DNA of 64,000 nt from Thermicanus aegyptius DSM 12793. GTDB lineage: Bacteria; Bacillota; Bacilli; Thermicanales; Thermicanaceae. The translations under genes and the position numbers were made by a program. Under the pieces are notes generated by a model. That model was not told where the DNA came from, did not search any database, and was given only the letters and a program-made list of their open reading frames with translations. Below, piece by piece: positions 7,233 to 63,937 of the stretch. Where the stretch lies: assembly GCF_000510645.1 (NCBI RefSeq), contig NZ_KI783301.1, forward strand, positions 3,177,788 through 3,241,787. The letters run 5' to 3'. The first letter of the stretch is position 1. Every line of letters starts with the position of its first letter.

Positions 7233-8279
7233 GTGATTAACGTGGGAAGAAATTATGACCATTTAAAAGAGGATTTCCTTCGTCTATATCCAAATGAAGA
7301 AAATAGTACAATCGCTAGTAGATTAGGTATTTCTGTGCATCAGGTACGGAGATTAGCAATGAAGTGGAAAATCCATAAATCGTCAGAATTTCTTGACAGG
7401 AAACGATTGTTGACAAGAGTAGGGCAACAGAAGTATTTCTCGAATAAGATCAAACCTATATTGCCTACAAAAGAACAATTGTCCATTATTCTTGGCAGCT
7501 TATTAGGTGATGCCAGTTTATCTTGCGCACCTAGAAGTAAAAATTACTCCTATAAAGAACATTTCTCCTCTCATCAATTCGAATACCGTAAATGGAAAAT
7601 GGAGAAACTGGCGGATCTCGGTTTTCACATCACCAAGTCTCACCATCTTTACTCCTACTCCCATCCTTTTTTTACTGAGTTACATCATCTCTTTTATCAT
7701 GACGGAAAGAAAGTGGTCCCCAAAATTTTACTCCCATTCATGGATCACCCTCTCCTTTTAGCTACGCTTTATCTGGATGATGGGTCTTTGCGTCTTTCTA
7801 TCACAAAAAAGAATAAAAAAATCTTTCTCCATCCCAATCTTGCAATCTATTCACAAAGTTTTTCAGAGGGAGATAATACTGCCCTGATGACTCACTTCAA
7901 TCAATATTTTGGGACATCATTTGTCCTAAATAAGAGAAAAGACGGAACAGGATTCATCCTTAAACTGAATAAAGAAAGGGACGTTAGGTATTTTTTGAAT
8001 ATCATTCGCCCCTTTGTTAAGGATATACCTAATGTCGCTTATAAAACTGACTTAGACCATAGACTTAATCTCGAGATATCTCGGCTTAAAAACCTCTATC
8101 CCGATCATGTCATACTTCCATCTTCCTCATCTCGGAATAAACCATATACCGATGATGAGATTGAGAAGCTGATTTCGTTAAGGAAATTGGGCAAATCATG
8201 GAATGAAATTGCAAACTCTCTCAATCGTACTTACTGGTCGGTTATGTATAAAGCTAAGGAATTAAAAACTCGCTTATAG
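7233..8279 (+). CDS. LAGLIDADG-type homing endonuclease with helix-turn-helix regions at both ends
   Basis: The 348-residue protein carries two LAGLIDADG-like motifs: LGSLLGDASL (residues 87-96) and LATLYLDDGSL (176-186), each with the expected acidic residue. Residues ~20-47 (STIASRLGISVHQVRRLAMKWKI) and ~310-345 (TDDEIEKLISLRKLGKSWNEI...) look like DNA-binding helix-turn-helix or Myb-like units. The family makes site-specific double-strand breaks that drive intron mobility. The start is GTG with a weak ribosome site; a second in-frame GTG follows three codons later. The gene is AT-rich and stands free, converging on a dead flagellin tail, so it may be the mobility enzyme for the neighbouring group I introns. 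Confidence 0.85.
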   Translation: MINVGRNYDHLKEDFLRLYPNEENSTIASRLGISVHQVRRLAMKWKIHKSSEFLDRKRLLTRVGQQKYFSNKIKPILPTKEQLSIILGSLLGDASLSCAPRSKNYSYKEHFSSHQFEYRKWKMEKLADLGFHITKSHHLYSYSHPFFTELHHLFYHDGKKVVPKILLPFMDHPLLLATLYLDDGSLRLSITKKNKKIFLHPNLAIYSQSFSEGDNTALMTHFNQYFGTSFVLNKRKDGTGFILKLNKERDVRYFLNIIRPFVKDIPNVAYKTDLDHRLNLEISRLKNLYPDHVILPSSSSRNKPYTDDEIEKLISLRKLGKSWNEIANSLNRTYWSVMYKAKELKTRL

Positions 8280-16996: not shown

Positions 16997-17269
16997 TTAT
17001 TTTCCTCTCCACCAAGCGAGGAGTCTATCCGCCAATTGCTGGGCCGAAACGGTATAGGTTCCAGCCTCCACCTCTTTCTTTAACGCTTCGATCTTCTTTT
17101 GGCGGGCAGGGTCTACGCCTTCCAGGGTCTCGCTGAATCGCTCCAGAGATTCAGGGGAGATCTCCAGTTGATCTTTCGGAGCAAGGGAAGGCTTCGCTTC
17201 ATTTCCCTTCACCGTCGGCTTTGAGTAAGGATGGGTTTGTCCAAAAGGGTTAATGCCGTCAATCTTCAT
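16997..17269 (-). CDS. flgM: Anti-sigma-D factor FlgM
   Basis: A 90-residue protein with N-terminal MKIDGINPF, a flexible middle, and the C-terminal sigma-binding helix (RQKKIEALKKEVEAGTYTVSAQQLADRLLAWW). It holds sigma-D inactive until hook completion. An intrinsic terminator separates it from yvyF, so it needs its own promoter. I found no convincing sigma-D box in 17270-17373. Confidence 0.95.
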   Translation of the reverse strand: MKIDGINPFGQTHPYSKPTVKGNEAKPSLAPKDQLEISPESLERFSETLEGVDPARQKKIEALKKEVEAGTYTVSAQQLADRLLAWWRGK

Positions 17270-17373: not shown

Positions 17374-17413
17374 AAAAAAGAAAAACCGATCCCCCGCTAT
17401 TAGGAGTATCGGC
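17374..17413 (-). terminator. Intrinsic terminator between yvyF and flgM
   Basis: On the minus strand GCCGAT-A-CTCC pairs with GGGG-G-ATCGGT around a 7-base loop and is followed by TTTTTCTTTTTT. It closes the LuxR-yvyF unit. Its first arm also reads GCCGATAC, a sigma-D -10 look-alike. Confidence 0.8.
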
Positions 17414-17440
17414 TAAATGCTCCGTTCTCATTAATTCCTC

Positions 17441-17887: not shown

Positions 17888-18005
17888 CTTCCTCCCCTCT
17901 CTCCAGAACAAAAGGAGCTTCACCTTTTGCTTCCTGCCAAGCCCTAGGCTAACGTTCTCCTTCTCCATACTTTTATTATACCCGAGAAGAGAGAGTTTGT
18001 CTCTT

Positions 18006-18332
18006 CTATTCTTCCTTATTCCTTTCGCAAGGTTCATATTCGCTGATGAGGTACCGAAATAGAGCCGCCTGTACCTCACGAATCGACCGAGCATTCATTT
18101 TTATCAGGATTTTGCTGATGTGGTTCTTCACCGTATGAGGGGAAATGTTAAAGAGTTCACCGATTTTTTCATTGGAAAAACCAAACAGACAGATGGCGTA
18201 AAGAAGATCCCTCTCCCTTTCGGTAAGGGCATAGGCGGTGATAAATTTCTGCAGCGGGTGAATATGCGATGGTTGCAGGGACTCATCTCGTTTCAATTCC
18301 TCGAAGAGTAATTCCGTAAGCGCTCTTCTCAT
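18006..18332 (-). CDS. LuxR/GerE-type helix-turn-helix regulator, single domain
   Basis: A 108-residue protein with a C-terminal LuxR-type DNA-binding domain: LTERERDLLYAICLFGFSNEKIGELFNISPHTVKNHISKIL. The ~45 N-terminal residues are helical, and there is no receiver or ligand domain. The start at 18332 follows GGAAAGGAGAAG. Bacillus subtilis has no such gene between comFC and yvyF. A c-di-GMP riboswitch and terminator lie just upstream, so the regulator is likely controlled by c-di-GMP. Its targets are unknown; flagellar or competence genes are the obvious candidates. Confidence 0.88.
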   Translation of the reverse strand: MRRALTELLFEELKRDESLQPSHIHPLQKFITAYALTERERDLLYAICLFGFSNEKIGELFNISPHTVKNHISKILIKMNARSIREVQAALFRYLISEYEPCERNKEE

Positions 18333-18400
18333 TTCACTTCTCCTTTCCCAAAATCCACAAAGCGTCTCTCTCCATTTCTTCCTACAACCGGATGGCACGA

Positions 18401-18437
18401 AAAACATAAAAAAGGGGACGTGTTTAACGTCACCCTT
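18401..18437 (-). terminator. Intrinsic terminator downstream of the c-di-GMP aptamer
   Basis: AAGGG-U-GACGU pairs with ACGUC-CCCUU around UAAAC, followed by TTTTTTATGTTTTT on the minus strand. GTCACC between aptamer and terminator can pair with the terminator's 5' arm (GGTGAC), an antiterminator that would compete with it. This is a typical expression platform, 70 bases before the LuxR start. Confidence 0.85.
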
Positions 18438-18468
18438 GTTTCTTCAAAGAAAATAGAAATACAGGTGA

Positions 18469-18550
18469 CAGGTAGCTGGCTGGCATCGTTCCTCCGAACA
18501 TTAGCCCCTCTAGCTTTGCGACCTCTCCTTTCAGAGAGTGTGCCTTTTTC
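18469..18550 (-). ncRNA. c-di-GMP-I (GEMM) riboswitch aptamer
   Basis: On the minus strand AAAAAGGCACACTC is followed by a CTCTC/GAGAG stem with a GAAA-containing loop, GGTCGCAAAGC (consensus GGACGCAAAGC), GAGGGGCTAA, a second stem (TTCGGAGGAA), and ATGCCAGCCAGCTACC (consensus ATGgCAGCCgGGTTgCC). These are the conserved blocks of GEMM in order and spacing. A terminator and antiterminator follow. A weak promoter candidate (TTGCAA-16-TACAAT) lies ~70 bases upstream of the aptamer. The rest of 18551-18897 holds nothing convincing. Confidence 0.88.
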
Positions 18551-18897
18551 TGCCTATGTTTGTTTTTATTCCCTAATATTCTACAATCTTCGCCAAACTT
18601 TTCCCTCTTATACTTATTGTATAAGCTGCCCACACAATTGCAATAGTACAAGTGGACTAATTTTCCATCCGAAAGAGGCATCGTTGGCTCGTTATGTACA
18701 GGTCTTAAGAACTAGCATGGCATGAAGAAGTTCAGAACAGGCATGGGAGATTCAGGAAGATCACGAGAAGGGAGTCGAAACGGTACAATCGCTTCTCGGA
18801 TGATTTTGTCGAAAATGAAGGACGAACTTGGAAAAATCAAGGAGGTTTTTGAACCGAGGGGGGCTATGAGGGGAGGAGTGATGCATGAGAGACGCCT

Positions 18898-19837: not shown

Positions 19838-19942
19838 CTGCGTTTGGCCCTCCTAAGGGGTAGAAACGGGGTCGACGAAAGCTCGTCAATCACCACCATA
19901 TCAAACGGCCAACTGCGTTTGGCCCTCCTAATGGGTAGAAAC
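19838..19942. CRISPR. Two-repeat CRISPR-like remnant with one spacer
   Basis: Two 30-bp repeats (19838-19867 and 19913-19942, one mismatch) read CTGCGTTTGGCCCTCC…GGGTAGAAAC and end in GAAAC like many CRISPR repeats. The 45-bp spacer (19868-19912), read on the minus strand, encodes WPFDMVVIDELSS, the Walker B-like motif typical of phage SNF2 helicases. The second repeat forms the last four codons and stop of the adjacent pilin gene. No cas genes are in the window. The other bases of the gap (19672-19837) show nothing I recognise. Two repeats are too few for certainty. Confidence 0.6.
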
Positions 19943-20482: not shown

Positions 20483-22435
20483 TTACTCCGCCGATCCTCC
20501 CCCGAACAGCCGAATCAGCCGATTCTTCTTCTTTTCTTCCACCAAAAAGCCCCTCTTCCTCGCTTCCCGGTTCATCCCCTCAATCTGCCGTACCGCCTTT
20601 ACCATCGACCGGGAACGGCTTTCCGAGAGGAAAAGAACTTTTCCACCCGGATCCTCCGCCGATCTTCCGACTCTTCCGGCGATCTGTACGAGGGAACTTT
20701 CGTCAAAGATGGGCGCATCGGCCATCAGGACCAAGGCGTCGGTGAAGGGGATCGTTACCCCCCGCTCCAAGATGGTGGTGGTGACGAGAAGGCGGATCTC
20801 TCCACGCCGGAAAGCGCTCACCTTCTCCTCTCGCAACGGCTCGCCGGCATAGGTTCCTTCGGTCTGGGGGAATGTTTCTTTGATTAAGGCAACCAAATCT
20901 TCTACCAGGCCGATCCGGGGCACGAAGAGGAAAGCTTGTCTGCCGTTCCGATGAAGCTCATTCAGGAAGTGGCGGACCCCCTGCGGAAGTTTCCCCTTGC
21001 CGATTTTTTCCTCCAAACGGGACTCATACCGGAGGATGGGAACGGGTAGCGGATGTCCATGAAAACGACTGGGAATGGTCGCTTGCAAAATCTCTCCTTT
21101 TTTTACTTGTTGCAACATCTTCTCGGAAGGGGTAGCGGTGAGGAGAATTCGCTTTCCTCCTGCTGCGGTTGCCCGATTTACGGCGAAATGAAGCATGGGG
21201 CTATTATGGAAGGGAAAGGCATCGATCTCATCGACGATAACCAATGGAAAAGCATGAAAGAAATTGAGGGCCTGGTGGGTGGTGGCGATCACCAGCTCCC
21301 CCATCTTCCCTTTTTGGCGGCTGCCTCCGTAGAGGGAGACCATCGGAACGGAAGGAAAGGCCCTGCGAAAACGGGGTGTAAGCTCTAGAACCACATCTTT
21401 CCGGGGCGTGGCCAAAAGGACACGTTTTCCTTGGCGGAGGGCCATATCGACGGCCTGAAAGACAACCTCCGTCTTGCCGGCACCGGTAACGGCCCAGATG
21501 AGGAGCTCCCGCCGGTCTGTGCGGGGAAGGGTCCCTTGCACGAATTGGGCGGCCATTTGGGAAGCCTCCTGTTGGGCAGGAGTGAGCTCCCCTTCCCACG
21601 AGAGGAAGGAAGGTAGAAGTGTGAAGGAACTTGGGGCCGTCTCCTTTGGACGTGTGGGGGAGAAGAGGATCGGTTTGCACCCTTTGCTCGCACCCATGGC
21701 GGAGCAAACCTCACAGACCATATCGTCGTGTTCGCAAACACCGCAGGGGTAGCCTTGCCATCGGCGGTATTCGCTGGAGCAGCGCTGGCAGCGGAGGAGG
21801 GTTCCCCGATCCGACTCCACGATCGCCATGCCCGAGGTAAGGGATAGTTCCCCCCTATGGTGCAAATACTGGATCAGCATGGGAAGGTATCTCCGCCGGA
21901 ATGCCCTCCTCTCCTCTCTTTCCACGTCCGTGGGACCATTCCCGCCCTTCCTCTCCTCCAAGAGCTGATCTCGGATGGCCAATTCCCCATAAAGAGGCCG
22001 GTTTACCTGATCCAGGTAATCTTCCACCTGTTCCAACAGGCAAAAACGCCCTTCGATCAGAGGGCGCAATACCTCTCCATCCTTCTCCAGCCATTCCCTC
22101 TTCCAGATCTTCAACCCGTCGGAGTAAGGTTTCCCTTTGCTCTTCTCCCATAAATCCTTCGCATTGAGCGCAAGACTCCGGTCGATCCTTTGAATGGCTT
22201 CCCGGATCCATCCCTCCACCTTTTCAATGACGGCATCTTCCCCTGCGTTTAACCCATTCTTTACTTTCCCCAGCAGGAAGAAAGCGAAATATAAGGGAAG
22301 GGCAGGGGTAATCAGTCCCTGAAATCGTTTCCCTTCCTCCTCCAGCCACCATTGGGTGACGGAAGGGGATAAGGTAAATCCCGCATCCCATCGGGTTTCA
22401 TTTTTCTCAGAGAAGAGATAGAGAGACGCCCTCAT
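20483..22435 (-). CDS. comFA: Competence helicase ComFA
   Basis: A 650-residue DEAD-type translocase with a four-cysteine zinc finger (CQRCSSEY…CGVC, then CEVC). Walker A VTGAGKTE, DEIDAFP motif II, LLTATPS motif III and a C-terminal helicase half (VQIAGRVGRSAEDPGG) follow. It powers DNA uptake with ComFC. The order comFA - pilin - comFC suggests one transcript, although 168 bases separate comFA from the pilin. Confidence 0.94.
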   Translation of the reverse strand: MRASLYLFSEKNETRWDAGFTLSPSVTQWWLEEEGKRFQGLITPALPLYFAFFLLGKVKNGLNAGEDAVIEKVEGWIREAIQRIDRSLALNAKDLWEKSKGKPYSDGLKIWKREWLEKDGEVLRPLIEGRFCLLEQVEDYLDQVNRPLYGELAIRDQLLEERKGGNGPTDVEREERRAFRRRYLPMLIQYLHHRGELSLTSGMAIVESDRGTLLRCQRCSSEYRRWQGYPCGVCEHDDMVCEVCSAMGASKGCKPILFSPTRPKETAPSSFTLLPSFLSWEGELTPAQQEASQMAAQFVQGTLPRTDRRELLIWAVTGAGKTEVVFQAVDMALRQGKRVLLATPRKDVVLELTPRFRRAFPSVPMVSLYGGSRQKGKMGELVIATTHQALNFFHAFPLVIVDEIDAFPFHNSPMLHFAVNRATAAGGKRILLTATPSEKMLQQVKKGEILQATIPSRFHGHPLPVPILRYESRLEEKIGKGKLPQGVRHFLNELHRNGRQAFLFVPRIGLVEDLVALIKETFPQTEGTYAGEPLREEKVSAFRRGEIRLLVTTTILERGVTIPFTDALVLMADAPIFDESSLVQIAGRVGRSAEDPGGKVLFLSESRSRSMVKAVRQIEGMNREARKRGFLVEEKKKNRLIRLFGGGSAE

Positions 22436-62363: not shown

Positions 62364-63902
62364 CTATCCTCTGGTGAGATGGATCTCCCCTTCCTTGATG
62401 CGTATGCTTACTTTTGCCTCCTCCCGGGTAAAGAAATGCCCTTTCCCGCCGATGAGAACTTCGGTCTCCGGATATACTTTATTAAGACGAACCACTCCTT
62501 CAGGATCAAGTACTTCAACCAAGGTGCGCACTCCGGCCTGGGACCCCACTTCTTCAAGCTCTACCCTATGGCCGGACCTGATTTCGCCGCCCCGGTAGGA
62601 GCCTTTCCCTCTCACGCTTCCTCCGGCATCGATGATCGAATGGTATCCTCCCCGTTGGGTTACCTCCACATCCCCTTTTGATTCCACTTTACTGTTAAGG
62701 AGACTGGAAAGAACCACCTTCACATCCTTCTTATCTTCCGCCGGATTCTCTTTCAAAAGCTGCTTTAAATGTAAGAGCAGCTTTTGAAACCGGACATAGG
62801 TGATGTCTGGCGGACTTCCCCCTGTGTGGGAAAGCTGTGCCTGTACCTGTTGAAGCCCATCGATCACCTCCAGCCAATCTTTTGGAAGGCTGATCTTTTG
62901 TCTTTCCTTGGCCAATTCTTTAATCTCCTCCCCGATGCGGGGATTTATCTTTTGGATCAACAGTTTGACGACCGGAAGGATCGTTTGCTGCTCCTCTTGC
63001 AAGATCCATTTCCCCTGGGGCGTTTGGGATATTTGATGGATCCCGACGTCCACTTTCTCCAGATCCTCTTTGATCTTTTCCAAGGTGAATTTTAATTCTT
63101 GCAAGGGGCTAACACCAGCAGAAAGATGGCTGCCTATCGCCTGACCTTGAACCAGGATCGAACCCCCTGCCTTTACGGTGGCCTTCATCACATTTCCCCC
63201 GACGCGGATATCCCCGTCTGCCTCCACGGTCATTCCTTCGTTTATATTGCCGGAGATTTGAATATCTCCGCGGAAGCGGATATTCCCGGTGGAAAGGTCC
63301 ACATCTCCCGACTGGATGAGGGTTGGAGCGACACTGATGTGGTAACCCCCGCTTTTCGTCTTTACCTTTAAGTATCCATTGATCGTGGCGTAGATCACCT
63401 TTCCTTCCTCATCCAGCCGAACCCCTTGCCCAAGGGCGATGTTAACCGCCCGAACCGGAGGGGGAGGGATCGGTTCCCCACGGACTCCGCTGCCCTCCCT
63501 GCCCGGCTGAGGAGGGAAGATCTGGGCGATTCGGTCTCCGGCGGCTACACTGGGAATGCGAAAGAAATCCAGATAATTAATCCTTCCGTTCTCCTCCACG
63601 AAGCGATGCTCTTCCTGAGTTTGAACGAACCATTCCACCCAACCGTCCTTCCCATTCTCTGGAGGAGTTCCCTCCGCCAAGAGATATTCCCCCGGTGGAG
63701 GCGCATGGAGGGCGACTCTCAATTCTTCCTCTTGAATGGGAAGTTTGATCCCCTCCTGCATGAGACGCCGCTTCACCTCTTCTTCCGTAAAGGGAGCCTC
63801 CCCTTCTCCTTGCTTTACAATGAGTCGGACCTTTAATGGTTCGATGTGCAGGTGCCAAAGAGGATATTTTTTTCTCTCTTTCCCAAGACCTTCTCTCTCC
63901 AT
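62364..63902 (-). CDS. FapA/DUF342-family polysaccharide-like beta-helix protein
   Basis: The 512-residue protein has an N-terminal alpha/beta part and a central beta-helix with glycine-rich turns (GDIQISGNINEGMTVEADGDIRVGGNV, split over turns). A coiled-coil segment (~280-400) and a second beta-helix (VESKGDVEVTQRGG…) follow. The family lies next to chemotaxis and sigma-D genes in many Firmicutes; its role is not established. The ATG at 63902 follows GGAGGG; a TTG one codon earlier is possible. Confidence 0.88.
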   Translation of the reverse strand: MEREGLGKERKKYPLWHLHIEPLKVRLIVKQGEGEAPFTEEEVKRRLMQEGIKLPIQEEELRVALHAPPPGEYLLAEGTPPENGKDGWVEWFVQTQEEHRFVEENGRINYLDFFRIPSVAAGDRIAQIFPPQPGREGSGVRGEPIPPPPVRAVNIALGQGVRLDEEGKVIYATINGYLKVKTKSGGYHISVAPTLIQSGDVDLSTGNIRFRGDIQISGNINEGMTVEADGDIRVGGNVMKATVKAGGSILVQGQAIGSHLSAGVSPLQELKFTLEKIKEDLEKVDVGIHQISQTPQGKWILQEEQQTILPVVKLLIQKINPRIGEEIKELAKERQKISLPKDWLEVIDGLQQVQAQLSHTGGSPPDITYVRFQKLLLHLKQLLKENPAEDKKDVKVVLSSLLNSKVESKGDVEVTQRGGYHSIIDAGGSVRGKGSYRGGEIRSGHRVELEEVGSQAGVRTLVEVLDPEGVVRLNKVYPETEVLIGGKGHFFTREEAKVSIRIKEGEIHLTRG

Positions 63903-63937
63903 CAAACCCAGCCCTCCTTTTCATCCCCTCATCGGGC

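Follow-up and report, generated by a model that had tools for sequence, protein, structure and literature searches.

In Thermicanus aegyptius DSM 12793, a c-di-GMP-I riboswitch that can be regarded with good confidence as a transcriptional OFF switch precedes the gene for a small sensorless LuxR/GerE protein, and its control probably reaches the following yvyF gene by read-through. The element was analysed within a stretch of 64,000 nucleotides, called the window throughout. Riboswitches responding to c-di-GMP have mostly been described before effector genes, and what stands out here is the rare context of a known riboswitch class together with a likely relay of the signal to a small regulator. 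In the literature searched, which did not extend to most subscription journals, c-di-GMP riboswitches are reported neither for yvyF loci nor ahead of solitary LuxR genes.

Gene order at the locus

The gene content of the locus is firmly established. The unit of riboswitch and LuxR gene is located on the minus strand, with a comFC-like gene (19671-18898; TIGR00201 92.4 bits, under the cut-off of 233.55) on one side, 5' of the riboswitch, and yvyF (17890-17441) on the other. The product of the latter reaches 136.6 bits with TIGR03826 against a cut-off of 124.15, in agreement with the initial annotation. On the same strand lie a comFA-like helicase gene (20483-22435) with DEAD, ResIII and Helicase_C domains and tblastn matches in the comF loci of relatives, and flgM (16997-17269; PF04316 46.9 bits; TIGR03824). 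A ComGC-like pilin gene (20314-19928, minus strand; NF040999 58.5 bits, under the cut-off of 75) sits within the comF cluster, with comFA on one side and comFC on the other. Between comFC and the pilin gene, two copies of a CRISPR-like 30-bp repeat, CTGCGTTTGGCCCTCCTAAKGGGTAGAAAC, are found at 19838-19867 and 19913-19942 with 45 bp between them, and these two are the total in the genome when up to 3 mismatches are allowed.

The flagellin region of the window holds two group I introns on the minus strand, at 10314-9954 (78.9 bits) and 9838-9502 (61.3 bits). The first splits the flagellin gene close to its 3' end: the coding sequence runs to ...ESRIRDVD and resumes past the intron with MAKEMMEFTKNNIL..., while the second is located just past the flagellin stop. 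A LAGLIDADG endonuclease open reading frame (PF03161) is present at 7233-8279 on the plus strand.

Aptamer and expression platform

The aptamer (18554-18468, minus strand) matches Rfam RF01051 with 73.2 bits against a gathering score of 35 (E 1.9e-12 for the whole window), and the alignment covers the model at full length, positions 1-87 of 87, with an accuracy of 1.00. The class assignment made previously from the letters is thus borne out, and the span then given, 18332-18550, comprises aptamer, platform and leader as far as the LuxR ATG at 18332. The alignment contains a GAAA tetraloop, GGC ahead of ACAC and UACC at the 3' end. A guanine occupies the position of Vc2 G20, as in the c-di-GMP type and in place of the A of the cGAMP type, and a C stands at the position of C92; the bases which we take to be equivalent to Vc2 G20, A47 and C92 are all present, and c-di-GMP is the predicted ligand. 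MicX as the identity of the site was rejected on a sub-threshold score. The aptamer is an ordinary representative of this known riboswitch class, with nothing different in itself.

The 3.66-Mb genome contains four c-di-GMP-I aptamers including this one, the other three preceding genes for an HD-domain protein, a 260-aa protein that has no Pfam match and looks secreted, and a histidine kinase accompanied by what reads as a response regulator. Since eight GGDEF matches occur in the genome, c-di-GMP is probably made in this organism. Ahead of the riboswitch, a promoter-like site, TTGCAA-16-TACAAT (18616..18643, minus strand), fits the consensus in 9 of 12 positions, a consensus match only: the scanned 9.1-kb stretch holds 9 such sites against 5.9 +/- 2.6 expected by chance.

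The geometry of the expression platform is equally firm. The 5' strand of P1, GGCAG (18550..18554), faces a 3' strand, CUGUC (18467..18471), which is common to P1 and an antiterminator; the antiterminator is composed of the 5' arm UGUCACCU (18470-18463) and the 3' arm GGGUGACG (18435-18428), and the latter doubles as the 5' arm of an intrinsic terminator (18407..18437, stem about 18437-18412, followed by a U run), all on the minus strand. The antiterminator pair GTCACC/GGTGAC noted at the outset is therefore real and lengthens to these two arms, and the terminator that had been proposed ahead of the LuxR gene is seen as a stem of -12.8 kcal/mol (z -3.43; none of 200 shuffles equally stable) with its U run. 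When the downstream segment was subjected to 3000 dinucleotide shuffles, 2 of them reproduced the three-way overlap of P1, antiterminator and terminator.

P1 thus precludes the antiterminator, which in turn precludes the terminator, the arrangement of an OFF riboswitch. For RNA made to 18428-18419, forced-state energies give the antiterminator fold -37.6 and the P1 fold about -34.1 kcal/mol, an antiterminator advantage of about 3.5 kcal/mol prior to the 3' arm of the terminator. With the terminator arm complete the order flips, P1 plus terminator reaching -42.3 versus -38.4 kcal/mol. Even without ligand, P1 plus terminator is thus the fold of lowest energy for the full-length RNA, so that the ON state has to arise kinetically.

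When the polymerase leaves the aptamer, CUGUC would pair either with GGCAG to form P1 or, as part of UGUCACCU, with GGGUGACG. With little c-di-GMP the antiterminator would win before the 3' arm of the terminator exists, and transcription would continue. With c-di-GMP bound, P1 would be held and GGGUGACG freed for the terminator, upon which transcription would stop about 75 nt ahead of the LuxR start codon and the LuxR gene would be off.

The small regulator

The LuxR gene (18006..18332, minus strand) encodes a solitary DNA-binding protein of 108 aa with a GerE domain (Pfam E 5.3e-12; PF00196 45.6 bits versus a cut-off of 23.5), which confirms the earlier call of a LuxR-type gene. Its ATG at 18332 lies 7 nt past the GGAG of the Shine-Dalgarno sequence AAAGGAG (18340..18346, minus strand); a longer reading from 18407, which would start where the terminator's U run ends, is unnecessary. 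About 35 residues precede the HTH, and the solved chains closest to the protein are the DNA-binding domains of VraR, FixJ and NarL. Within the 108 aa Pfam finds the HTH only, and no receiver domain of a NarL/DegU-type response regulator. As receiver and sensor domains are lacking, the protein probably takes its input through its amount, which the riboswitch would set. As long as the leader is transcribed, the riboswitch almost certainly controls the LuxR gene.

yvyF loci in relatives

All positions of RF01051 and YvyF in 61 relatives were compiled, and an aptamer model built here was searched over about 92 yvyF loci, 80 of them named and 12 from relatives. Apart from this genome, RF01051 is close to YvyF in one of the 61 relatives, G027 from another family of the class, and the model search recovered the aptamer, besides the window itself, at the locus of this same genome only (L043). 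The rarity claimed initially is hence broadly right, while the LuxR-yvyF arrangement was found in no second species among the 61 relatives and about 92 yvyF loci.

In G027 the order is comFA-comFC, other genes, a c-di-GMP-I riboswitch (RF01051 81.8 bits), an HD-GYP gene (HD_5 E 5.8e-33), yvyF, flgM and further flagellar genes, with riboswitch, HD-GYP gene and yvyF all on one strand. As in T. aegyptius, the riboswitch is placed upstream of yvyF-flgM-flgN-flgK and downstream of comFA-comFC; unlike in T. aegyptius, the intervening gene is of the HD-GYP phosphodiesterase type and other genes separate comFC from the riboswitch. Should the riboswitch ahead of the HD-GYP gene (L043:6094-6808) be an OFF switch, a positive feedback loop on c-di-GMP would result. 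In Hydrogenibacillus-type relatives, riboswitches located some 17-20 kb upstream of yvyF were set aside, as they belong to a FapA gene instead. In the window, the FapA gene (62364-63905, minus strand) comes after a LuxR-type HTH gene resembling a PAS-LuxR regulator, and the gap before FapA, which carries a c-di-GMP-I riboswitch in the Hydrogenibacillus-type relatives checked, lacks one.

The gap between comFC and yvyF measures 1011 nt here versus less than 200 nt in most yvyF loci of relatives, a difference that marks the riboswitch-LuxR unit as an insertion in this lineage.

Transcription of yvyF and flgM

While control of the LuxR gene, as claimed at first, stands, its proposed extension to yvyF is weakened by a promoter-like site in the 115 nt that separate the stop codon of the LuxR gene from the ATG of yvyF. 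This site, GAGACA-17-TATAAT (17975..18003, minus strand; 10 of 12 positions), is the best sigma-70-like match in the scanned 9.1-kb stretch, so that yvyF may have its own promoter. A perfect 8-bp inverted repeat, AGAAGAGA-7-TCTCTTCT (17985..18007, minus strand), spans its -35 element and, judged by position, is a possible operator; no further exact copy exists anywhere in the genome. As a shared operator the repeat was discarded, copies with at most 2 mismatches numbering 10 versus 8 in the reversed control, without evidence of a regulon. As a terminator it was rejected for lack of a U run, and no other terminator was found in the gap separating the LuxR gene from yvyF. With a repeat without U run and a promoter-like site side by side, yvyF may be reached by read-through or be transcribed from a promoter of its own.

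The strongest competitor of the proposed arrangement, somewhat short of even in our estimation, has the riboswitch controlling the LuxR gene only, with yvyF transcribed from its own promoter at 18003-17975 and the LuxR protein perhaps acting on the inverted repeat over the -35. The top promoter score in the region, the uniqueness of the repeat, the length of the gap and the adjacency of comFC and yvyF in most relatives all speak for this arrangement. Promoter-like matches occur, however, in near chance number, no terminator blocks read-through from the LuxR gene, and in G027 a riboswitch of the same class heads an HD-GYP gene and yvyF in a single orientation. Riboswitch control of yvyF by co-transcription with the LuxR gene is accordingly plausible, with chances that we consider about even.

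Beyond yvyF, a terminator (17374..17412, minus strand) with a stem at 17412-17386 and a U-rich tail, of -12.3 kcal/mol (z -1.75), parts yvyF from flgM, as had been suggested. Ahead of flgM a sigma-D-like promoter, TTAAT-N16-GCCGATAC (17405..17434, minus strand), is recognized by its likeness to the sigma-D consensus. The 5' arm of the terminator overlaps the -10 of this site and would hence be absent from a transcript starting there, which would escape the terminator. The link of the riboswitch to competence is positional only.

Direction of the switch and known systems

An OFF switch is predicted because the antiterminator outcompetes P1 before the terminator's 3' arm exists, and the geometry agrees, as c-di-GMP would stabilise P1 and thereby free the terminator. 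The OFF direction, well supported by this design, lends weight to the negative c-di-GMP effect expected in the initial annotation.

Shared with the RF01051 class in general are the full aptamer, the GAAA tetraloop, the c-di-GMP contact bases and the logic of P1, antiterminator and terminator, the difference here being the target, a solitary GerE regulator beside yvyF. In Clostridioides difficile, all class I switches working in reporter assays are OFF switches, and the flagellar class I switch at flgB terminates transcription on c-di-GMP (PMC6200980). Like this switch, Cdi-1-3 before the flgB operon, the element described here is a class I switch, predicted to be of the OFF type, at a flagellar locus (PMC6200980, PMC11477304), but Cdi-1-3 heads a 29-gene early flagellar operon including sigD, whereas here the switch heads a small regulator and flgM is cut off by a terminator. 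Response regulators are controlled by class II switches in C. difficile, and the one before cmrRST likewise senses c-di-GMP ahead of genes for DNA-binding regulators (PMC6200980, PMC11477304); it differs in having a class II aptamer, in being an ON switch and in serving response regulators that belong to a full signal transduction system.

On the other hand, c-di-GMP-I ON switches exist also in the Bacilli, such as Bc1 ahead of the mcp gene mcpE in the Bacillus cereus group (PMC11218506). That c-di-GMP raises LuxR expression in T. aegyptius is nevertheless improbable, given that the 3' strand of P1 overlaps the antiterminator and not the terminator and that no anti-antiterminator element was seen. 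Slightly less credible still is a decayed or silent insertion of the riboswitch-LuxR unit, which would fit the widened comFC-yvyF gap and the failure to find the insertion in a second genome among those searched but is countered by an intact aptamer, a complete expression platform and a LuxR open reading frame with a good Shine-Dalgarno sequence.

Relatives of the small regulator and a possible c-di-GMP relay

In a search of the 61 relatives, the first match of the LuxR protein after itself was a paralog of 94-100 aa in this genome (E 2.4e-11), followed by a protein of 104 aa in G058 (E 6.7e-10), which is the best short homolog from another genome; one scan of genome contigs with the protein gave no match. 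Longer regulators come next with E-values much the same, so that the short group does not stand apart by sequence similarity alone. In a search of 398 genomes of the class with a three-member profile, the members score at least 139 bits and the next protein 61 bits, a gap that arises in part by construction since the same three proteins built the profile, and no fourth short member near that score was found among these 398 genomes.

In G058, a c-di-GMP-I riboswitch (74.5 bits) immediately precedes the gene for the 104-aa GerE protein, and the 3' strand of the riboswitch's P1 can, as here, pair with a downstream segment inside a terminator. With five such riboswitches in 3.9 Mb and about one gene per kilobase, we estimate the probability of this placement by chance at roughly one in a thousand. 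The likeness to T. aegyptius consists in a c-di-GMP-I riboswitch immediately 5' of a related solitary GerE protein, the difference in a locus that is neither comF nor flagellar. The short GerE protein is absent from G072, the other genome of the same genus examined. The paralog (L152:5853-6137; G000:C1:1183846-1184139) directly follows genes that read, by eye, as cheW, cheA and cheY, and no c-di-GMP riboswitch is present at its locus. Two of the three short GerE members are thus found behind c-di-GMP riboswitches and one in a chemotaxis cluster, a distribution that suggests a role of the group in motility.

Through its level, the LuxR protein would relay c-di-GMP to whatever genes it binds, most likely motility or chemotaxis genes. 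As a more general and tentative proposal, to which we give less credence than to the arrangements discussed for yvyF, solitary GerE proteins of this type may constitute a c-di-GMP relay, in which a class I riboswitch sets the level of a sensorless regulator that acts on chemotaxis, flagellar or competence genes.

The interest of the locus lies in its rare wiring and in a pairing of riboswitch and small GerE protein that recurs in a second lineage; the G027 case suggests that the comF-yvyF site has been wired to c-di-GMP more than once. The conserved yvyF gene, of unclear role, gains a possible signal input. If the relay holds true, one RNA switch would turn c-di-GMP into indirect control of a regulon and the decision between sessile and motile life would be coupled to the late flagellar, and possibly the competence, region.
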